This document shows positions 8,891 through 20,923 of a DNA stretch of 22,693 nt, in pieces. The notes beneath the pieces are model-generated. The model did not search any database and had not been told where the DNA came from. It saw nothing but the letters and a program-made list of their open reading frames with translations. Made by a program: the position numbers and the translations under genes. Numbering within the stretch: the stretch's first letter is position 1; every line of letters begins with the position of its first letter. This DNA comes from a virus. The DNA lies in the IMG/VR virus record IMGVR_UViG_3300004460_000256, positions 1 to 22,693 of that record. One strand, written 5' to 3'.

Positions 8891-11374
8891 ATGGCACGGG
8901 CATCAGTCGCGTTTACCAATTTTACCGCTGGGCAGTTATCCAGTCGGCTTGATGGACGAACAGACCTTACAAAATATTTCAATGGCTGTACTCAGCTCAC
9001 AAATTTCATGGTCCACCCGCATGGTGGTGCAACCAGGCGACCAGGCACTTATTTTGCAGCGGAAGTAAAAACCAGCGCAAAAGCAACACGCCTTATACCA
9101 TTTGAATTCAATACTGACCAAACGTACATAATCGAAATGGGCGATTTGTACATGAGGTTTTTTACAAACAATGGTCAAATTATTGAGGGCAACAAAACAA
9201 TTTCTGGCGCAACCAAAGCTAACCCTTGCGTCGTAACAGCAAATTCACACGGCTACTCGAACGGTGAAGAAATTACAATTTCATCTGTTGCCGGAATGAC
9301 TGAACTCAACGGCAAGCGATACTTAGTTAAGAATAAATCGACTAATACTTTTGAGCTGACAGACAAAGACGGCACAAACATCAACAGCACAAATTTTACA
9401 ACGTACGGTTCTGGTGGTGTTGCAAATCGCATATATGAAATTGTAACGCCATTTCTTGAGGCAGAATTATTTAATGTGCGGTTTGCGCAATCAGCCGACA
9501 CGATGTTTATGGTTCATCCAAATCATCCACCACAGAAGTTAACTCGAACTGGCAATGCTTCCTGGACAATCGCCGACGCTCCAATTGAATACGGACCAAT
9601 GCAGGATGAAAACACATCCGACACAACGTTAACAGCAAACGCACGAACAGGTTCTAGTTGTCAGATCACGTCATCGGCAGATTTGTTTGAGGCAACAGAT
9701 GTCGGACGCCTCGTAAAGATTTACGAAGGCTGGGTTAAAATCACAAGCAGAACAAATGCAACAACAGTTGTTGGAACTGTTCAGCCAAACTTAGAAGGTC
9801 GATCAGAACTTCTGCCAGAATACGTTGCATCGACAATCAGTTTTATTGAAGGCGATCCTAGCTCGACAAATGCCGAGCATAATGACCGAATTTTGGATAC
9901 TGCCAAAGGATTTAAAGATCAAGGTTTCGCGGTAAACCAAACAATAACTGTGTCAGGCACAAGCTCAAACAATGGTGATTATCTGATTGTTGATGTTACC
10001 GACGATACTATTCTTGTTTCACCCAGCGATGACCTAGCAGCGGAAAGTGCTGGATCGTCTTTTACAATTGCTGGGAAGCTTACAGCGACCGATGAGTGGT
10101 CGCTGGGCGCGTTCTCAGAAACAACTGGATACCCGTCAGCTATTTGTTTTTTTGAAGAGCGGTTAGTTTACGCTGGTACAACTGAACAACCTCAAACAGT
10201 TTTCTTTAGCGAGTCAGGTGGCTTTGATCAGTTCGCGGATGGAGCTGACGACGGCGATGCAATGATCTATACAATTGCATCAACGGCTGTGAACCAAATT
10301 AGATATCTGTCTCCAGGTAGGGTTTTGATCATTGGCACATCTGGTGCTGAGTTTGCTGCGCAGGGATCAAGCGCAAATGAACCGATTACGCCAACAAGTA
10401 TTCAGATTAAACGACAAACGACGTACGGAACATCAACCGTTGCACCAGTTCAATCAGGCAACGTTGTGCTATTCCTCCAGCGCGCTCAAAGAAAAATACG
10501 AGAGCTAGTCTATAATTTTGATGTTGATGGTTATATAGCGCCTGACATGACTTTGCTTGCCGAAGACATCACTGAAGGTGGCATTGTTGATATGGACATT
10601 CAGCAAGAGCCGGACAACGTCGTTTGGTGTTGTCGCGCTGATGGTGCGTTATTGGGGATGACGTACCGAAGAGAAGAAAATGTGATTGCTTGGCATAAGC
10701 ACGATCTGGGAGGGTCCGCGCTTGCGGAGTCCGTTGCAGTTATTCCTGGCGATCTTGATGAAGATCAAGTTTGGATTTTAACAAAGAAAACAATCAATTC
10801 AGTTTCGCGAAGGTATGTTGAATATTTAATGCCTCAAGATTTTGGTGCGGTTGAGAATGCGTTTTTTGTAGACAGTGGCCTGACGTATAGCGGCAGCGCA
10901 ACCACCTCGATCACCGGACTAGACCATTTGGAAGGCCAGAGCGTATCCATACTGGCAAACGGCGCAACACACTCAAATAAAAATGTAACAAATGGCGCTA
11001 TTGCATTGGATCGATCTGCAACAAAAGTTCAGATTGGCCTTCCATTCACATCAACTCTGAGAACTATGCGTATTGAAGGTGGCTCGGCGACAGGATCAAG
11101 CCAGGGTAAAATTAAGCGCATTCACGATGTGACAGTTCGGTTTTTTGAGACAGTCGGCGCAAAGGTTGGTTCAAATTCTAGCGATCTTGACCTGATACCT
11201 TTTCGATCCAGTGCTGATGAAATGGGCCAGGCTCTCGATCTGTTTACTGGCGATAAAGAAATTGAATTCAAAGATTCATATACCACTGATGGCTACATTG
11301 CAGTCGTGCAGGATCAGCCATTGCCGATGACAGTCCTAGCAATATACGCGCGCATGCACACGTTTGATGCATAA
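8891..11374 (+). CDS. Tail tubular protein B (gp12-like nozzle) with FCCH-like insert
   Basis: The product is 827 residues (T7 gp12: 794). The N-terminus has the FTAGQLSSRLDGRTDLTKYFNGCTQLTNFMVHPHGGATRRPGT landmark of this family. The C-terminus has a beta-rich end ...FTGDKEIEFKDSYTTDGYIAVVQDQPLPMTVLAIYARM. Inserted at about 105-178 is a segment like the FCCH domain of ubiquitin-activating E1 (HGYSNGEEITISSVAGMTELNGKRY...NTFELTDKDG), a small beta-barrel seen in many phage tail proteins. A second beta module (about 335-395, SGTSSNNGDYLIVDVTDDTI) is similar in style. Six copies would form the tail nozzle. The inserts probably lie on the outside and could touch carbohydrate or fibre (inference). 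It overlaps the next gene by 8 bases. Confidence 0.9.
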   Translation: MARASVAFTNFTAGQLSSRLDGRTDLTKYFNGCTQLTNFMVHPHGGATRRPGTYFAAEVKTSAKATRLIPFEFNTDQTYIIEMGDLYMRFFTNNGQIIEGNKTISGATKANPCVVTANSHGYSNGEEITISSVAGMTELNGKRYLVKNKSTNTFELTDKDGTNINSTNFTTYGSGGVANRIYEIVTPFLEAELFNVRFAQSADTMFMVHPNHPPQKLTRTGNASWTIADAPIEYGPMQDENTSDTTLTANARTGSSCQITSSADLFEATDVGRLVKIYEGWVKITSRTNATTVVGTVQPNLEGRSELLPEYVASTISFIEGDPSSTNAEHNDRILDTAKGFKDQGFAVNQTITVSGTSSNNGDYLIVDVTDDTILVSPSDDLAAESAGSSFTIAGKLTATDEWSLGAFSETTGYPSAICFFEERLVYAGTTEQPQTVFFSESGGFDQFADGADDGDAMIYTIASTAVNQIRYLSPGRVLIIGTSGAEFAAQGSSANEPITPTSIQIKRQTTYGTSTVAPVQSGNVVLFLQRAQRKIRELVYNFDVDGYIAPDMTLLAEDITEGGIVDMDIQQEPDNVVWCCRADGALLGMTYRREENVIAWHKHDLGGSALAESVAVIPGDLDEDQVWILTKKTINSVSRRYVEYLMPQDFGAVENAFFVDSGLTYSGSATTSITGLDHLEGQSVSILANGATHSNKNVTNGAIALDRSATKVQIGLPFTSTLRTMRIEGGSATGSSQGKIKRIHDVTVRFFETVGAKVGSNSSDLDLIPFRSSADEMGQALDLFTGDKEIEFKDSYTTDGYIAVVQDQPLPMTVLAIYARMHTFDA

Positions 11375-11801
11375 CTACCAAATTCGACCCTATGAAGCTG
11401 ACCATGCTTTAGCAATTTTAAGCCAAGGGTACACAGAATCTTTTTCAGATACTGATCAAGCTCGATTAATGGAGAATTCTAAATTTTCGGTCACGTTGCT
11501 CATTGATGATGATCCTGTGGTTTGTTCAGGAATTATCAAATTATGGGATGGCGTGGGCGAAGGTTGGTTTTTATCTACGGATGAAGTGAGTAAGTCATCA
11601 ATGGTTATAGCCAGGGCAACAAAAGAAGTTTTGTTAGAAGAAATAAGCGCTGGAAACTATTGGCGTTTGCAAATAAATGTCCGCGCAGATTGGAAACAAG
11701 CTTTGAGATTTGCACAATTTTTAGGATTTAAGGAAGAGGGTCTCATGCACAAATTTGGGCCGGATCAAAAAGATTATTTGCGAATGGCTATAGTTAAATG
11801 A
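11367..11801 (+). CDS. gp13-like GNAT-fold phage protein
   Basis: I take ATG at 11367 as the start; TTG at 11364 is directly before it, and the first 8 bases overlap the gp12-like gene. The 144-residue product is close to T7 gp13 (138), a GNAT-like family (formerly DUF2833) needed for virion core assembly in T7. Visible landmarks are GEGWFLSTDEV, the R-A-T-K-E-V-L-L helix, and WRLQINVRADWKQALRFAQFLGFKEEGLMHKFGPDQKDYLRMA, which is the C-terminal half of an acetyltransferase fold. The usual acetyl-CoA loop Q/R-x-x-G-x-G/A is not evident, so catalysis is doubtful. Position between gp12-like and gp14-like genes supports the virion role. Confidence 0.8.
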   Translation: MHNYQIRPYEADHALAILSQGYTESFSDTDQARLMENSKFSVTLLIDDDPVVCSGIIKLWDGVGEGWFLSTDEVSKSSMVIARATKEVLLEEISAGNYWRLQINVRADWKQALRFAQFLGFKEEGLMHKFGPDQKDYLRMAIVK

Positions 11802-12303: not shown

Positions 12304-14010
12304 ATGATTATACCAAAAACTTTTATATCTCAAACATTACGCACCGCCGACACAGGCGCTCGACCACTGACAGTTCAAGCAGATGCTAACGCAGTGGCAG
12401 CGCCTGGCCGCGCCACGGCAGCATTTGGCGAGGCAGGTGTAAATGCTGGTGTAAGATGGATGGCTAACGAAATAAAAATCCGGCGCGCGACAGATGTTAC
12501 AACGACTGAGACAGCTTACAAAGCAGCAATGTTTGAGCATGAAAATGTAGCAAACGCTATGAATGATCCAGAAAAGGCAAAAGTTTATATTGCTCAAAAG
12601 TCAAAACTTGAGCAGCAAAGATTAAAAAAAATAACGGGTAGTTTTGATAGCGTCACGCAAAGGCGCATTGGAACGGTTTACGCAACAGAAGATTCTTTAA
12701 TTACATCTCGCGTAAGAAACGAAGCGCGAAAAAGAATGGTCAGCGAACACATTGCATCTTCACTTGATAGTATAGAACAAATCAAAACTAAATTAGCAAC
12801 TGCTTCTAAAGCGGATCAAATAATTCTTTCTCAGAAAGTTTTAGGTAAGCCAGCCGACACTTCTAAAAATAAAGCTGCTATACCTGGGATAATAGATAAT
12901 TTAGTAGACCTGGGTTATTTAAATGCGGAGCAAGGACAAAAGACTGCGCAAACTTTTCGGCAAGATGTGGACGAGAATGCAGTCGATCAACGAATTCTTG
13001 AGGTAACTCAATCTGGTGATCCAGGACAAGCAGATAAACTTTCTGTAGACCTCGCAAACCCAGCAAATTTTAATTTTTTAAGCGCATCTCGACGCACAGC
13101 ACTCCAAGAGCAGGTTTTAAAATTGTCAGATAGACTGGCAAGAAGATCAATTGCGACCATTGATAAGCAAACTGCCAGAGATGAAAAAAACGCCAAAAAA
13201 GCACAAGTTACATTGGAATTAAGTTTTCATAAAAGAATTGCAGACTACCGAAAGAATCCTGAAAACATACTGCCTGATGAAAACCAAATTTTAAAAGCGT
13301 ATGTAGAGGGCCGAATAACTGAACCAGGTTATAAGCGAATTATTGATGCAATAGAAAATATCGACAATTCAATTATTAACGATATGAAATTTGTTCGAGA
13401 TGCTTACAAAGATATTTTTGATGCTGAAACGCAATTAGCTTTAGACGACGTTACACAAAAAACTCAAAACAAATTTATTGCTGGCAAGATAGATTTGGCA
13501 ACATTGCAAAATATAGAAAACAGAATTGCAGGTAGAAAAAACAACACAGAAGAATCACAACAAATTCAGAGTTTCACAAAGGTGCTTAATTCTTATTTGA
13601 AAGCTGAAGGCATTTTAGATGGCCTAGTGCCTGGCAGTTCAGAACGCGCGTCAATTGTGATAGACCAATTTAATAGTGATATAAGAGACAATACTCCTGT
13701 GTTAAAGGCTTTTGAAAATGCCTTTGATAGTATCAATAAATTAGACAGCATAGATAAATTAGTAAGGCCGCGCTATGGCCCGACGACAGATTTGAAAAAT
13801 TGGACGCTTGCAGACGTTGAGGCGTCAGTTTCGGAGACAAGACAAGCATATAGCGGCAAAGCCAGCATTCTTGCTTCTCAGATGGCCCAACTAATTTTAT
13901 TAAGAAAGTATATTGAAGGAAAGCCAGAAAAGCCTGCTAAAGAGCTTACGCCTGGGGAATTAAAAGCTAAAGAAGAGAAAGATAAAGCCGAGCGAGATAA
14001 AAATAGATGA
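12304..14010 (+). CDS. Internal virion protein C (gp15-like)
   Basis: This 568-residue protein is almost entirely alpha-helical, with long polar helices and few aromatics. N-terminal landmarks (APGRATAAFGEAGVNAGVRWMA) resemble other phage gp15-position proteins. The C-terminus is a lysine/glutamate-rich tail (about 540-568). It has no catalytic motif I can recognise. T7 gp15 (747) assembles into the core and, after ejection, into the periplasmic tube with gp16. The identification rests on size, composition and place, not on a detected domain. The gene is A-rich compared with the structural genes upstream. It ends in an ATGA overlap with the next gene. Confidence 0.65.
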   Translation: MIIPKTFISQTLRTADTGARPLTVQADANAVAAPGRATAAFGEAGVNAGVRWMANEIKIRRATDVTTTETAYKAAMFEHENVANAMNDPEKAKVYIAQKSKLEQQRLKKITGSFDSVTQRRIGTVYATEDSLITSRVRNEARKRMVSEHIASSLDSIEQIKTKLATASKADQIILSQKVLGKPADTSKNKAAIPGIIDNLVDLGYLNAEQGQKTAQTFRQDVDENAVDQRILEVTQSGDPGQADKLSVDLANPANFNFLSASRRTALQEQVLKLSDRLARRSIATIDKQTARDEKNAKKAQVTLELSFHKRIADYRKNPENILPDENQILKAYVEGRITEPGYKRIIDAIENIDNSIINDMKFVRDAYKDIFDAETQLALDDVTQKTQNKFIAGKIDLATLQNIENRIAGRKNNTEESQQIQSFTKVLNSYLKAEGILDGLVPGSSERASIVIDQFNSDIRDNTPVLKAFENAFDSINKLDSIDKLVRPRYGPTTDLKNWTLADVEASVSETRQAYSGKASILASQMAQLILLRKYIEGKPEKPAKELTPGELKAKEEKDKAERDKNR

Positions 14011-17000
14011 TTATTGATCAAGAATTAGTCAAAGAACAGATCAGCTCTTTTGACCCTGAGACAAAAGCAGCAATCGCAGCTAAAGATTATGACACTGATT
14101 ATCTAGAAGAAAATCAAGACGCTGAAATTGATTTGGCAACTGATCCCCTTGAGCGGCCACATCGAGTTACCAGCACAAATCTTTTGAAAGATAAGCTGTT
14201 CATTAGTTCGGCCAGGCACCTGTATGGCATGTTCGCAAAACCTGAGTTGCCGGATGATTATACAGTTGATGATATTGGAGAATTAGTTAACCAGCCGCCA
14301 CCAGATCAATCAGAAATTTCTGACGAAGACATTGCAGAATGGGGTTTAGAATTAGCTGGGTATCTTGAGTGGAACGTTGTTGACCTTGGAACGGCAGCCT
14401 ACAAGATTCAAGGCGCGCCTATTCAACAAAGAGCTTCGCTTTTTAGCTTGATGCAAAAGTATGCACAGCTACCAAACTTCACTTGGGATGGCAGCATGCG
14501 TATGTTAAAGGGCATGGGTACTGATCTTTCCAGCTATTTTGGCCTGGCAACTTTAGGTAGCGCATTTTTAGCAAGACAAGCAGCAAAGCAAGCTGGGAAA
14601 ACAGGCATTAAAGCTTACTTGAAAGCAACGTTGCCTGCGGCAGTTTTAGCTGGCATTGAAGGTGGCGCATACACCTCGATTGATGATGCAGCTCGGCAAT
14701 ACATTAGCATTGCTGCGACCGAAGATTTGCCTGAAGATGACTCCGGCGCTGGCGGCTCCAGCCAAACAGATTTTGATAAAACACAGAATGCAATAAGCGC
14801 AGGGATTGGAACTGTTGCAGGAGGTGCGATAGCAACTGTGTTGCCTGCCGTTCCGATGGCTTTAAAGGCCGGAGCTTCAAATTTTGCAAATGCGTTTAAT
14901 GCAGTTGCAGATTCAAGCGCACAGCGATTAAGCATGGGTGCAGGACCAACCCCATCCGCAAAAAAAATAGATACTTTTGACGCCTACGTTAAAGAGGTCG
15001 ATCCATCTGGTAAAATTATACCTGAAGAACAAAGACCTGCTTTAGGTATGGGCGATATGTATGGAATGCTACCTAAAAACTCTGAAGTTGTTCAAGGGTA
15101 TGAAGAAATTAATGGGGTCACTCTGCATAGAGGACCAAATGGAGATTATTACGCTACAGCTTATAACAAGGATTTAGGTGAAGAAGATGTAGTTGGATAT
15201 ATTCAAGGTCGAGAAAATGGAACAGAATTAGCAGTTGTTCAAGAGATGCAGGGCAAAGGTATAGGAACCGAGCTTCAGTATTTGTTTAGACGTGAAAACC
15301 CATATGCACCAACTGGCGGTTTAACAGAAGCTGGCAAGAGTAGGCTTGAAACTACATTTGATAGATTGGATGCAGAAGAAGTTTTTAACACATCAGACGT
15401 AGACGTACCTGCAACCCCATCTGACACAGCCGCCAATGCGACAAGGTCAACAGGCGTAGAGCGTGGCGAACGGACAACGCAAGGATACAAATTAAAGCCT
15501 GGCGAACGCGCGCTTGTTGTTGATGCAGCTACAAAAGTGAATGCAAAGCCATCGGTTGTTCAAAAGAATTACAAAGATACTAAAAGTAAGTTTCCAAAAA
15601 GTGATGGTTGGGCAGACATCGAAATAAACAAAGTTGTTATAAAAAAGGGTCAGCCAGAAGTAGAATTTAAAAAAATACCATATTCGTTTAACCAAACGAA
15701 AACTGCGGACGAGCTTTCAGATAAGATGGTCGAGGAGGTCTTGCAGTTAAAATCGAGGGTTGATCAAGGCGATCCTATAGCGGCAGGAATCTGGGATCAC
15801 AGAAGCTGGTATTCTGAAATGCGCCAAAGATTGCGCGCAGAATTTGGAGGGTTTGGAGATGTGTTTGCTGACGTGATTGGCACAACAAGCGCACAAACCA
15901 ATGTTCAGCAAAACTGGGAAAACTCTATTGAGGTCATGCGCCGATTCACACGCGGTGAATTTGATGGCGCGTTGACTAAGTTAGACGCATGGTTAAAAGC
16001 TGGTAAGCCAATGGGGTCCGGCAAAATTACGGGCGATGGCTACGTGGATGAGCATTACAAAATCCGCAAACAAGTTGAAGAGGCAGCGAAAGCTGATGGC
16101 ATGAGTGAAGATGCCGCATCAGAGATGGGGTTCGCGGCAGCTCAAGAAGAGTTTCCATTAATAGTAAAACAAACGGGCAAATTATTTAACGCGAACAGCC
16201 CAGCAACCATGCAAGCTTTGCTCGGTTTGTTTAGAGACATGAAAGTTGGATCATCTCCAAAGACTCCAAACTTCACTGGCAATCTCATTGGCTTCAGCAA
16301 TTACGCAACGATTGATGTTTGGGCTGCAAGGAACCTGCGCCGACTTGCAGGTCTGGACAGAATTCCAGTGCCAGCCGAGCAAGGCGTTGGCGGCGCTATG
16401 GCTGAAAAAAGTACGCAAGGGCCAGACGGCAAAGAAATAAAAGAATTAAAACCAGATGGTGAGTTTGGATTTGGACAAGACGTGTATCGAGAAACCACTG
16501 CTAAGTTACGTGAGCGAGGCATAGAACTTAATGACGACGATTTGCAAGCGGTCGTCTGGTTTATGGAAAAAGAAATCTGGACCAAAAACAATTGGACAAC
16601 AAAAGCAGGCGAAGGCGGCTCACTTGAAACGGAAGCTGACTTTGCAGGCGTTTGGAATCCAGAAGGTGTGAAGTCTGCCAGATCAACTTTATCGTCAACC
16701 GCTGGTGAGTCTGACCGAAAAAAATTGGAACAGGAATTAAATGATCCAAAAAATATTGAGGCATACGAAGCATCGGTTGCCGAGCTAAAAAACTACGAGG
16801 ATTTTATTGCAGAAGAGACATTAGCCAAGCGCAGAAATTTTGTTATGGCGAATGAGAATATTGAAGACAAAGATTTAGCGTTGGCGCGCGTTAAAGAAAT
16901 TAAAGCGACCATAACAAAACTAAATCGAAATATTTCAAAATTTGAAAATCTTCAGCCGCGTATTGATAAGCGTGTTGAAAAACGTGCAGGCGTTGTCGCA

Positions 17001-17801
17001 GAAGCAGAACAAGTGCTTGAAAGAAAAGTTCCAGCCCGTAGGCTGTTAGGTGGTTTTTCATTGCAAGAAAAAGGCAAGATACCAACTGACAAAAGAATGA
17101 ATGCAGCGCAGGGCCGCATGTTAGAAACTATTAATCCTGACCCAACAGTTATTATGATGCGCGCAACACCAACAAAGGGAAGATACATAGACCCCAAAGG
17201 TGAGATTTGGGATGAACGCGCAATAGACTTTGAATATATTGCGCGAGAAAATCACGACCCGCAGGATGCAGTCCGGCAGATGGTGCAAGAAGCAAAAGAT
17301 GCAAATCAAGAAAGTGCATTCTTTAGCGAAGTTGTTGCACCAGGTACAGTTGAAGATGCAAACCCTGGCCTTGAAGTGTATTTTAATCGAGTGCTGACAG
17401 AAGAAGAAGTCGATAAAGTTACAGAGTTTATAAATTCCACAAAAGTGGATGTTGGTTTTACTTTTGCAACAGATTTGCGACAAGCTCAAATGGAAGCAGG
17501 CGGCGAACAACTTGATAATTTTGTTGGCGTCCGGCTGCAATACATCCCAGAGCTTGCAGAAAAAGGCCAAAAGGGTTCGCAAGAAGCAACTGATAAAATT
17601 CTAGACCTTGTTGATTTACTACCCGAAGATATGGACTTTGTCAGTTCTGCACAGTATACTGAGTATGACACTGAAATTTTCTTTAGAGATGCAGGAGATT
17701 ATGATGCCGAGCTTACAGGAAGTGTACGCCAGGGCCGTCGAGCGAAATGGCGCGGAGAGCAGGTCAGCAAAAATGATCAAGTTACAGATGGAAGCCCTTG
17801 A
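14007..17801 (+). CDS. Large multidomain internal virion protein (gp16 position, polyvalent-like)
   Basis: The product is 1264 residues (T7 gp16: 1318). Regions in order: acidic N-terminus (1-110); amphipathic/hydrophobic part (about 173-232 and 262-300) that could enter a membrane; a GNAT-like segment (about 367-453) with V-V-Q-E-M-Q415-GKGIG-T-E-L-Q-Y-L-F, an acetyl-CoA-loop-like motif; a region at 565-860 with SAQTNVQQNW, NFTGNLIGFSNYATIDVWAAR and LQAVVWFMEKEIW, like the DUF7178/HhH-type domain I recall from phage polyvalent proteins; a coiled coil (about 903-1010); and a C-terminal alpha/beta part (1040-1235). No transglycosylase motif like that of T7 gp16 was recognised. It is probably packed in the head and ejected with DNA to act early in the host (inference). 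Confidence 0.7.
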   Translation: MIIDQELVKEQISSFDPETKAAIAAKDYDTDYLEENQDAEIDLATDPLERPHRVTSTNLLKDKLFISSARHLYGMFAKPELPDDYTVDDIGELVNQPPPDQSEISDEDIAEWGLELAGYLEWNVVDLGTAAYKIQGAPIQQRASLFSLMQKYAQLPNFTWDGSMRMLKGMGTDLSSYFGLATLGSAFLARQAAKQAGKTGIKAYLKATLPAAVLAGIEGGAYTSIDDAARQYISIAATEDLPEDDSGAGGSSQTDFDKTQNAISAGIGTVAGGAIATVLPAVPMALKAGASNFANAFNAVADSSAQRLSMGAGPTPSAKKIDTFDAYVKEVDPSGKIIPEEQRPALGMGDMYGMLPKNSEVVQGYEEINGVTLHRGPNGDYYATAYNKDLGEEDVVGYIQGRENGTELAVVQEMQGKGIGTELQYLFRRENPYAPTGGLTEAGKSRLETTFDRLDAEEVFNTSDVDVPATPSDTAANATRSTGVERGERTTQGYKLKPGERALVVDAATKVNAKPSVVQKNYKDTKSKFPKSDGWADIEINKVVIKKGQPEVEFKKIPYSFNQTKTADELSDKMVEEVLQLKSRVDQGDPIAAGIWDHRSWYSEMRQRLRAEFGGFGDVFADVIGTTSAQTNVQQNWENSIEVMRRFTRGEFDGALTKLDAWLKAGKPMGSGKITGDGYVDEHYKIRKQVEEAAKADGMSEDAASEMGFAAAQEEFPLIVKQTGKLFNANSPATMQALLGLFRDMKVGSSPKTPNFTGNLIGFSNYATIDVWAARNLRRLAGLDRIPVPAEQGVGGAMAEKSTQGPDGKEIKELKPDGEFGFGQDVYRETTAKLRERGIELNDDDLQAVVWFMEKEIWTKNNWTTKAGEGGSLETEADFAGVWNPEGVKSARSTLSSTAGESDRKKLEQELNDPKNIEAYEASVAELKNYEDFIAEETLAKRRNFVMANENIEDKDLALARVKEIKATITKLNRNISKFENLQPRIDKRVEKRAGVVAEAEQVLERKVPARRLLGGFSLQEKGKIPTDKRMNAAQGRMLETINPDPTVIMMRATPTKGRYIDPKGEIWDERAIDFEYIARENHDPQDAVRQMVQEAKDANQESAFFSEVVAPGTVEDANPGLEVYFNRVLTEEEVDKVTEFINSTKVDVGFTFATDLRQAQMEAGGEQLDNFVGVRLQYIPELAEKGQKGSQEATDKILDLVDLLPEDMDFVSSAQYTEYDTEIFFRDAGDYDAELTGSVRQGRRAKWRGEQVSKNDQVTDGSP

Positions 17802-17941: not shown

Positions 17942-20923
17942 ATGGCATTAAATGAAAACGAACAGCTCGGCAATTCTTTGCTGGGGGCCGGAGGCGTGTC
18001 TGAACCGCTTGATGAACAGCCAGGCAACGTGCAGATGGCAATGGGCAAGTTTCCATCAAAAATAGCCAAACAAGTGCGACCAGCACTAGAGAAAATTCTG
18101 CCCGACATGCCAGAATTTGCGCCGAAGTCAGAAGATGATGTGCTTCGCGCAGCTCGTCAGAAGATACAACAAAAAGAGGCTGGGGTTTTACCTTCTTCCC
18201 CAGCCGAGCCAACGGCTGCGCCTGTCATTGCTCCTGACGACATGGATGCGCCGTTGGCGACTTCACCACTTGATAACCCAGCGCCATTAAATGTTGCGCC
18301 GCAAATTCAAGCAGATGATGTGCCGCCACAATTTGTATCAGAAGATACGTACAATAAGTTTTTTACTGTAGACGACGAACAAATTAATACAGTAATGAAC
18401 GCGCCAGAAAACAGAAGTGAATTGCTGTCTGAAGGGTTGTCTGATTTTAATTCAACAAAGCTACCCGATGAAGATGGCATTCAAGAGCGATTAGAAGCTA
18501 TATCGCAAACATTTGCTGGCAAGATTACTGAAGAAAAAAGAGGCGTTATTACTCGCGAGGCGACGAGGCAATTAGCTGACCTAGTCGGAGCAGACAGCAA
18601 CAAGCTTGCGAACGCAATTTTAAATAGGAAGCAGGGCGGCGTTATCTATGTCGAAGGACAAGGTCTTGCAGAAACGATTTTGGCTGCGCGCGATTTGCTT
18701 GTTAGCGAAATGCGAAAATTAGATGGTCTTGCAGATGCAGCCGAAATCGGCGGTGAAGCGGATTTACTAAATTTTAGATACCAGATGGAGCTGGTGGCAA
18801 ATTTACAGGCGAACGTGAAGGGTAGTCAGACCGAAATTGCGCGAGCGCTTGGGCAATACAATGTTCCGGCTAAATTGTACGATGGTGTTAACGATCCTAT
18901 GATGGCCCAGCAATTAAGTGAGCAAGCTCGCAAGCAAGATTATACTGCTATGTTACAAGAGCATGGTGGTCCAGACGCCATTAGAAAAATTGTATCGCTT
19001 TATAAAAATACAAAATCGCCTAACAAAAAAGCAGCTTTTGTGCGGGGCAGTTTGGGCAAGAAAGTGTGGAACGCTGTTTACGAAGTGTGGCAACACGCAC
19101 TTTTAACAAACCCAATTACGCAAACCAAAAATATCGTTGGCGGTGTCCTGGGGACATTTGTTCTGCCTACGCTTGAAGGCGCAGCGGCGGTAGGGATTGG
19201 AAAATTTAGGACACAACTTCTTGGAAGTTCAGATCAAGAAGCATTCACGGGCGGTCAATTAGAAGCTAGGCTTTTTAGTCAGATGATGACATTGCGCGAA
19301 GCATTTATTAGCAGTGCTGATAGCTTTGCAAATATGGGATCATCTGAAATACCAGGATTTAAAATTGACCGGGCGCGAGAGGGTAGCGCGCCAGCGTTTT
19401 CAGGAGAAGCCTTTGGGCAAACAGGTGCTATTGGCACATCAATTGACATACTTGGAAATATTTTAACCCTTGGACGTGTCAGTTTTAGAACGCTTGAGGC
19501 TGGCGATACGTTTTTTAAAGTTATCGCGCAACGTTCACAGCTCTATGAAACGGCCTTTTTAGAAGGGCAGGCGCGCGGTTTGTCAAAAAGTGACTTGTCA
19601 GATTTTATCGCTGAAACAGTTACGAACCCAACGCCAGAAATGATGGACAATGCCAATGCGGCAGCGAAATACCAAACGCTTCAAACTGATATGGATGGCG
19701 TTGGAAGAGCTTTGCAAACCATTCAGCGCATACCGATGGTGCGCTATGCGGTGCCATTTCTAAAAACGCCTTACAACGGTTCAAAGTATAGTTTTTTGGA
19801 TAGATCGCCGCTTGGGTATATTTGGGGCAACTCAAAAGCGATGATCGAGCAAGGTGGTCAAGCTAAAGATGAAGCTCATGCAAGAATAGCATTAGCTACT
19901 AGCGTTGGTCTATCTGTTGCTACGTTGGTTGCAACTGGAGATATAACAGGTGGCGGGCCAGCAAATTCTGCACAGAAAGAAATTTTATACGCAGACGGTT
20001 GGCAACCTTATTCAATAAAAGTAGCAGGTAAATATTACAGCTACGCTGGTATGGAACCGTTGTCGTCCATAATTGGCCTCTGGGCTGATGGTTCTGAAAT
20101 TACAATGAACACAGATACCGAAGATGAAAATTTTGATGGCAATGATTTGATGGGGGCAATGGTTGGGGCAACTTTATACAACGTGAGCAACAAAACTTTT
20201 ATGCAAGGTTTTTCAGATTTAGTAGCTATGAGTTCAGACCCTCGAAAGGCTGGTAAATTTTTTGAAAACTTAGGTTCGAGCGTCATGCCGAGATTTGTTA
20301 GTTATGTCGAGCGGATGGACGATCCTGTCATGCGAGATGCCAAAACTTTTGTAGAGCGGTTAAAATCACAAGTGCCAGGCTTGTCTAAAGATTTAAAACC
20401 AAAAGTTGGTTTGTCTGGGGAAGACATTCATTCAGGTATCTATGATTCAGAAACAAAGTCTTACAACCTGGCGCTTGGTCCTGACGCGATATCTCCAGTG
20501 TATATGTCAAAGTCTAAAAATTCACCAATTATAAAAGCTATCGAACAAATAGGAACTGTGTCTTTGCCGAAGGCACCTAGCGCAATCAATGTGCCAAACA
20601 TCGGTGCATTGGGGCTGACCGACAATGAACGATATTTCTTTCAAAAGCGCGCGCATTCTTTGGGTTGGAAATTGATTAACGAATATGTGTCTGAACCTGC
20701 AATCGTTGAGCAAATGAAACGTGCAGAAAACAATGACACATTAAAAGAAGCAATTCGCAGTCGAATAGAATTGAAGTGGCGTTTGGCTAGGCAAAAAGCC
20801 CAGCAAGAATTGATTATGCACGAAGAACTTGGTGACGGCTTGCGTAAAGCTATCGAGGGATTTGCTAAAGAAGAGCAAGCAAAAATCAAAAAAGATTTAG
20901 AAAATTATGAGGACAACCCATGA
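17942..20923 (+). CDS. Second large internal/ejection-type phage protein
   Basis: This is a 993-residue protein. Residues 1-130 are proline/alanine-rich and probably disordered. Residues 170-330 are helical with LADLVGADSNKLANAILNR. The segment 378-420 (VYEVWQHALLTNPITQTKNIVGGVLGTFVLPTLEGA) has the (W)..ALLT.P.T...N..G landmark of large phage internal proteins of this position, followed by hydrophobic stretches (398-420, 650-668). The M-V-R-Y-A-V-PFLKTP segment near 599-610 is also typical. The C-terminus (about 870-993) is a charged helical tail. Membrane-compatible helices and location suggest a DNA-ejection protein complementing the gp16-position protein. GGA at 17934-17936 is a weak ribosome binding site. 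It overlaps the fibre gene by 4 bases. Confidence 0.7.
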   Translation: MALNENEQLGNSLLGAGGVSEPLDEQPGNVQMAMGKFPSKIAKQVRPALEKILPDMPEFAPKSEDDVLRAARQKIQQKEAGVLPSSPAEPTAAPVIAPDDMDAPLATSPLDNPAPLNVAPQIQADDVPPQFVSEDTYNKFFTVDDEQINTVMNAPENRSELLSEGLSDFNSTKLPDEDGIQERLEAISQTFAGKITEEKRGVITREATRQLADLVGADSNKLANAILNRKQGGVIYVEGQGLAETILAARDLLVSEMRKLDGLADAAEIGGEADLLNFRYQMELVANLQANVKGSQTEIARALGQYNVPAKLYDGVNDPMMAQQLSEQARKQDYTAMLQEHGGPDAIRKIVSLYKNTKSPNKKAAFVRGSLGKKVWNAVYEVWQHALLTNPITQTKNIVGGVLGTFVLPTLEGAAAVGIGKFRTQLLGSSDQEAFTGGQLEARLFSQMMTLREAFISSADSFANMGSSEIPGFKIDRAREGSAPAFSGEAFGQTGAIGTSIDILGNILTLGRVSFRTLEAGDTFFKVIAQRSQLYETAFLEGQARGLSKSDLSDFIAETVTNPTPEMMDNANAAAKYQTLQTDMDGVGRALQTIQRIPMVRYAVPFLKTPYNGSKYSFLDRSPLGYIWGNSKAMIEQGGQAKDEAHARIALATSVGLSVATLVATGDITGGGPANSAQKEILYADGWQPYSIKVAGKYYSYAGMEPLSSIIGLWADGSEITMNTDTEDENFDGNDLMGAMVGATLYNVSNKTFMQGFSDLVAMSSDPRKAGKFFENLGSSVMPRFVSYVERMDDPVMRDAKTFVERLKSQVPGLSKDLKPKVGLSGEDIHSGIYDSETKSYNLALGPDAISPVYMSKSKNSPIIKAIEQIGTVSLPKAPSAINVPNIGALGLTDNERYFFQKRAHSLGWKLINEYVSEPAIVEQMKRAENNDTLKEAIRSRIELKWRLARQKAQQELIMHEELGDGLRKAIEGFAKEEQAKIKKDLENYEDNP

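Follow-up and report, generated by a model that had tools for sequence, protein, structure and literature searches.

The question raised by this locus is what a podophage does with a protein of 1264 amino acids that sits in its cluster of internal virion proteins and is a mosaic of separate modules. The window (the whole stretch of DNA analysed, 22,693 nucleotides) is the entire virus record IMGVR_UViG_3300004460_000256. The phage is a marine, HTVC010P-like podophage, and its portal protein is nearest to those of Pelagibacter phages of the HTVC010P type (58%). An earlier interpretation made without database searches (hereafter the sequence-only reading) proposed that the frame at 14007-17801 (+) encodes an ejection-type polyvalent protein whose effector is an injected acetyltransferase. 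The open reading frame is confirmed as genuine; it is intact, and its ATG overlaps the stop codon of the upstream gene. Nearby lie genes for terminase, portal, capsid and tail tube and the gp13-like and gp14-like genes; the upstream gene is in the gp15 position, and downstream come an internal virion protein of phrog_6651 and a tail fibre. The features discussed below are as follows.

12304..14010 (+): gp15-position gene of the internal virion cluster, upstream, assigned by position; the order is conserved in contigs L001, L002, L004, L021, L023 and L037
14007..17801 (+): polyvalent ejection-type protein, 1264 amino acids (P0001)
14286..14717 (+): residues 94-237, N-terminal region of gp16 type, with homology to LUZ100 gp47 "internal virion D" (38% identity, E 7e-26)
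14958..15431 (+): residues 318-475, inserted minimal GNAT-like cassette, predicted from model and fold search; absent from close relatives and found alone in other phage proteins
15249-15266 (+): residues 415-420, acetyl-CoA-loop motif QGKGIG
15696..16598 (+): residues 564-864, DUF7178 / HhH-GPD-like domain, by Pfam and hhalign matches
16257..16322 (+): residues 751-772, PKTPNFTGNLIGFSNYATIDVW, with invariant K752 and D770 as a candidate catalytic pair
16659..17021 (+): residues about 885-1005, coiled-coil-like linker of long helices in the AlphaFold2 model
17016..17336 (+): residues 1004-1110, first ferredoxin-like unit, SAM-lyase-like, with G1058, Y1060, E1070, Q1101 and E1102
17337..17696 (+): residues 1111-1230, second ferredoxin-like unit, which lacks the SAM-lyase signature
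17942..20923 (+): next gene, second half of the split gp16-type protein, matching the C-terminal part of LUZ100 gp47 and phrog_6651 (internal virion protein)

The only named phage protein that resembles the 1264-residue protein is LUZ100 gp47, and the resemblance is confined to residues 94-237. Residues 839-1031 of gp47 match the next gene of the window (E 3e-7), which is also matched by phrog_6651 (E 1.8e-27). Because the two ends of gp47 match two adjacent genes, the gp16-type ejection protein is split here, and the foreign domains that make up the payload are placed behind its first half. These matches bear out the ejection-type assignment, with the qualification that LUZ100 gp47 was itself assigned by synteny and not by similarity to T7 gp16 (PMC10134795). 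Among 71 informative payload loci, which exclude 14 further contigs that end too early, a relative of the next gene directly follows the payload gene in 37, and a gp16-like neighbour is absent at 34. None of the isolated phages searched carries the payload. The suggestion that the protein has no recognisable transglycosylase also holds, in that the Pfam SLT search matched neither the window protein nor LUZ100 gp47; such a domain is present in one of 25 relatives scanned. Thus, the window protein shares with the T7 gp16-type internal virion proteins, by way of gp47, its position in the internal virion cluster and homology at both ends. However, the window version is split over two genes, lacks a transglycosylase domain and carries an additional 950 residues or so of cassette and payload.

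The modules of this protein are found again in open reading frames as long as 3883 amino acids, beside ART-PolyVal, LPD22, LPD23, PcfJ or transglycosylase domains, which agrees with the polyvalent-type build proposed for it. In one protein of 3064 amino acids, a GNAT domain precedes DUF7178 in the same order as in the window protein. Several distinct domains are joined in each chain and exchanged among such proteins. Like the phage polyvalent proteins described by Iyer et al. 2017 (PMC5512222), the window protein is large, multidomain and encoded among structural genes; it has modules in common with ART-PolyVal, LPD22, LPD23 and PcfJ proteins, and GNATs are a listed class. It differs from them in that its payload matches no Pfam LPD model and is joined to one half of an ejection protein of the gp16 type. 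In the main text of PMC5512222, a word search found no mention of a SAM lyase, SAMase or glycosylase.

Residues 564-864 are securely assigned to DUF7178 by profile comparison. PF23802 is matched by all 38 diverse relatives (best E 4.6e-8; window 7.7e-5), and the window protein searched alone scores 23.1 bits, slightly under the cut-off of 27. An hhalign comparison with seven stand-alone DUF7178 proteins gave 96% and E 2.1e-9 over 174 columns, with a profile-profile score of 67.5 against a background maximum of 18.5. For example, the segment PKTRSFALNILGDDNAVTVDVWAAR of mycobacteriophage Heathen gp87 corresponds motif by motif to PKTPNFTGNLIGFSNYATIDVWAAR of the window. The window domain and DUF7178 (PF23802; annotated as N-glycosylase/DNA lyase in some phages) share the motif PKTxxF...TxDVWAAR. 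In contrast to the known examples, which stand alone at about 200 amino acids, the window domain bears insertions and lies inside a giant protein.

A kinship between DUF7178 and the HhH-GPD glycosylases is suggested by the same kind of comparison. K752 and D770 are invariant in the family and in register with Nth/MutY in hhalign; in the alignment with endonuclease III/MutY, the DUF7178 Lys and Asp fall on the HhH-GPD catalytic positions. The score of this comparison, 26.1, exceeds the background maximum of 23.0 by a small margin, and the model of residues 515-1264 gave no fold match to a solved HhH-GPD structure. Depositors have named DUF7178 relatives glycosylase or N-glycosylase/DNA lyase, and our literature search returned no paper dealing with DUF7178. 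The sequence-only reading had described a DUF7178/HhH-like region with insertions here, as a possible DNA-acting domain; its DUF7178 membership is secure, and the HhH part of that description is suggestive.

The C-terminal part of the protein holds what we regard as the most interesting, and also the least certain, of its three enzyme-like domains. The AlphaFold2 model of residues 515-1264 (mean pLDDT 90, pTM 0.83) contains a long helical, coiled-coil-like stretch and ends in two beta-alpha-beta-beta-alpha-beta units. Both the coiled coil and the extra alpha/beta C-terminus anticipated from the sequence are thus present in the model, the latter as two ferredoxin-like units in tandem, the first of which bears a SAM-lyase signature. 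In a Foldseek search of the PDB, the top match was the phage SAM lyase 6zm9 (prob 1.00, E 0.026, TM 0.50 by target length), and 6znb ranked fourth (prob 0.99). No PDB match had an E value below 0.001, and the T3 SAM lyase (7ock) was absent among the 50 matches listed. CutA, which belongs to the same PII-like superfamily, and designed ferredoxin folds were also returned. The fold search leaves the matched unit unspecified, and only the profile comparison and the signature point to the first.

In the SAM lyase Svi3-3, residues G56, Y58, E69, Q104 and E105 are conserved or belong to the active site (PMC7877911). Their positions in the fold are occupied by G1058, Y1060, E1070, Q1101 and E1102 of the first unit. 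The pattern G-x-[FY], E, Q-[DE] is kept in 35-36 of 36 relatives (F/Y in 36, E1070 in 35, Q1101 in 36 and the E1102 position in 35), and all nine aligned T3-type enzymes retain the G, aromatic, E and QD. When spacing is taken into account, 35/36 first units carry the signature, as do 9/9 T3-type lyases and 5/6 members of the set of small proteins typified by P60 gp54; among second units the figure is 0/39, and among background segments 1.3%. An Arg present in most relatives (S-x-x-R) is replaced by Glu1021 in the window protein.

We also sought direct sequence proof of kinship with the T3 enzymes, and this failed. The hhalign comparison with T3-type SAM lyases scored 14.5, with background families reaching 26.0 and shuffles 16.6, and the Pfam SAM-lyase model touches one of 36 members (E 0.03). 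A separate search of the window record with the PF23780 family gave no match, even at E 10. PDB-sequence HMM searches with payload profiles returned only chance matches to TPR, YdhR or deacetylase sequences. Characterised SAM lyases have barely detectable sequence similarity to one another (PMC7877911). Because no significant T3-type profile match was obtained, we do not claim membership of the SAM-lyase family, but propose that the unit works like such an enzyme, based on the fold, the signature and a profile link to the P60 gp54-type proteins. What the unit has in common with phage SAM lyases (Svi3-3, T3 gene 0.3) is a ferredoxin-like fold of PII type and the conserved positions for Gly, an aromatic residue, Glu and Gln-acid. 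The window protein differs in carrying two tandem units per chain fused to a virion-type protein, and in having no significant direct sequence similarity, the lyase role being predicted. By analogy with SAM lyases, the second unit may complete an intersubunit pocket.

The profile link came from a search of a viral fold library, which returned small stand-alone proteins that include P60 gp54, a member of the Pfam family DUF3574. Relatives of P60 gp54 in S-CRES1 and S-CRES2 are annotated as S-adenosyl-L-methionine hydrolase. The profile of these small, P60 gp54-type cyanophage proteins scores 25.5 against the first unit, compared with a maximum of 17.95 across 37 real background families. A DUF7178 gene comes immediately after a P60 gp54-type gene in contig L175, and in cyanophage S-CRES3 the two are separated by two small genes. 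Thus, domains that the window family joins in one chain also occur as separate genes in each other's neighbourhood. The DUF7178 proteins of L175 and S-CRES3 are 79% identical, and the adjacency therefore does not amount to two independent cases. A scan of the viral contigs with S-CRES3 gp66 gave no match. DUF3574 had no match in the MAGs that contain relatives, but the control genomes gave none either, and that search therefore carries no weight. Another small fold neighbour, ORF16 of Xanthomonas phage f30-Xaj, has Glu in place of the Gln, and because this Gln is missing it was not used alone as evidence for a SAM lyase.

Other accounts of the C-terminal unit must be weighed against a lyase. 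It might be a PII/CutA-like module for ligand binding or oligomerisation that has kept its pocket and has no lyase activity, in a protein that is mainly an ejection-core scaffold with DNA-binding domains. Non-enzymatic binders with PII-like folds are widespread, CutA is found among the fold matches, and the similarity to characterised SAM lyases is insignificant. However, the key residues of Svi3-3 are near-invariant across very divergent relatives, and the top solved-structure match is a lyase rather than CutA or PII; we consider this account rather unlikely. It is less probable still that the unit is an ejected anti-CRISPR whose substrate is not SAM itself but a signal nucleotide, derived from SAM or otherwise, for instance the SAM-AMP of type III CRISPR. 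Although SAM-AMP lyases have the SAM-lyase fold with catalytic E and Q, and a phage-encoded SAM-AMP lyase with an N-terminal extension is known (PMC12255297), the nearest small relatives of the window unit are annotated as SAM hydrolases, and an injected lyase would act ahead of signal synthesis.

The least probable account is the one favoured by the sequence-only reading, in which a GNAT acetyltransferase, joined to a domain that acts on DNA, is injected and disarms the host as the effector. The cassette at residues 318-475 does resemble a GNAT. In its QxxGxG loop, the Q and the three G residues are invariant in 17/17 relatives. Acetyltransf_7 touches 15 of these 17 and matches the window protein below the cut-off (E 0.037 for the whole protein and 0.0032 for the domain; 18.3 bits against the Pfam curated value of 27). 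The AlphaFold2 model (pLDDT 86) has a five-strand meander, the acetyl-CoA loop, a helix, a loop and a helix, and MYST-type GNATs head the fold search (prob 0.92-1.00 for the first 14). The cassette also co-occurs with ART-PolyVal (L010, L013), LPD23 (L011), LPD22 (L101) and DUF7178 (L098) in polyvalent-type proteins. Against this, the E values of the fold matches are 0.02-0.19 with TM about 0.4, and a PDB-sequence HMM search with the GNAT profile gave chance matches only. The model has no strands past the acetyl-CoA helix and so lacks the second half of a complete GNAT fold. The GNAT-like domain of the sequence-only reading is supported as to motif and fold, but it is a minimal core. In terms of the GNAT superfamily, it has the acetyl-CoA loop and the core of sheet and helix, but not beta5-beta7, and it lies under Pfam cut-offs. 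We regard these residues as a minimal GNAT core and a putative enzyme.

The distribution of the cassette is what decides against a central role. Close relatives (L001-L004), which are 49-62% identical elsewhere, skip residues ~318-475, and of 86 payload-bearing open reading frames (some of them duplicates) only that of the window holds the cassette. The segment is found in unrelated large phage proteins at 43-78% identity, and its GC content is 39%, compared with 45-46% around it. The cassette is mobile, a late addition in this phage and an optional extra. Because only one of the 86 payload frames carries it, the GNAT is rejected as the main effector of the family. An injected acetyltransferase is thus probably not the main point, and the conserved payload is DUF7178 together with the SAM-lyase-like C-terminus.

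We give a probability of about 0.55 to the interpretation that the protein is polyvalent, has a split gp16-type base and, once ejected, removes SAM and works on DNA on entering the host. From its position in the internal virion cluster and its homology to gp47, we infer that the protein is delivered into the host. It would be housed in the internal core of the mature virion and would enter the host with the DNA or ahead of it. The DUF7178 domain would then work on DNA, most likely as an HhH-GPD-like base-excision enzyme or AP-lyase. The first ferredoxin-like unit would work like a phage SAM lyase, converting S-adenosylmethionine into methylthioadenosine and homoserine lactone, and SAM loss would begin at entry, ahead of phage gene expression. 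The resulting shortage would starve SAM-dependent restriction, BREX-type defences and host methylation. The GNAT cassette, an insert that separates the ejection part from the payload, probably adds modification of a host target. In this scheme, packaging in the virion, ejection, all enzyme activities, the targets in the host and the sequence of steps are inferred. Phages are known to inject anti-restriction proteins (PMC12373910), and a literature search that covered few subscription journals returned no virion-borne SAM lyase.

More tentatively, we propose a specific form of this interpretation, in which a split ejection protein of the gp16 type carries a SAM lyase and a DNA glycosylase/lyase as fused cargo, and SAM is removed before phage gene expression begins. 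Such a protein would be the equivalent of T3 gene 0.3 in virion-borne form, and cassettes such as the GNAT would be swappable.

The T3 SAM lyase is made only after infection, and restriction can already act in the meantime. An ejected SAM lyase would close the gap left exposed to restriction by synthesis of the T3 type, and the phage would, if this is true, bring ready-made anti-defence chemistry along with its DNA. Polyvalent proteins, including those with GNAT domains, are known. The window shows an ejection protein divided in two with putative effectors attached, and DUF7178 and the small SAM-lyase-like genes of cyanophages gain a common functional context. A relative of the payload module is present in at least 220 viral contigs, and so this may be a common, unannotated form of counter-defence.

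The gene that follows the 1264-aa polyvalent ejection-type protein (window 17942-20923) is similar to the C-terminal part of LUZ100 gp47, a gp16-position "internal virion D" protein, and to phrog_6651. Because of this similarity, the gp16-type protein is, as judged from sequence, encoded by two genes in the phage group of the window.

The domains of the polyvalent protein were also encountered in other arrangements:

L098:4674-13865, 3064-aa phage open frame with GNAT cassette and DUF7178 domain
L175:1086-2108, adjoining stand-alone SAM-lyase-like and DUF7178 genes
L151:546-2079 (cyanophage S-CRES3), neighbouring stand-alone SAM-lyase-like and DUF7178 genes

As in the window protein, the GNAT cassette of the 3064-aa frame (residues 1112-1239) precedes the DUF7178 domain (1512-1626). 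SAM-lyase-like and DUF7178 domains are fused in the window protein; in L175 and S-CRES3 they are neighbouring single genes. The payload module that these two domains form is also present in MAG contigs L139-L143, which are perhaps prophages or co-binned phages; in one example, from a Sutterella sp. MAG (L143), it lies inside a 3130-aa open frame.

The gp13-position gene (window 11364-11801) could encode a second GNAT-like virion protein, given a weak match to the acyl-CoA N-acyltransferase family phrog_4470 (E 0.028) alongside matches to internal virion families. Distant from the polyvalent gene, the left part of the window carries a short tandem repeat (720-753; 3.8 copies of CCGCAAACA).

Both RefSeq and PHROGs (phrog_2226) give the label SAM-dependent methyltransferase to T3 gene 0.3 (402-860 of the T3 RefSeq record), although this gene encodes the known SAM lyase. 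Such labelling conceals SAM lyases from annotation-based surveys.
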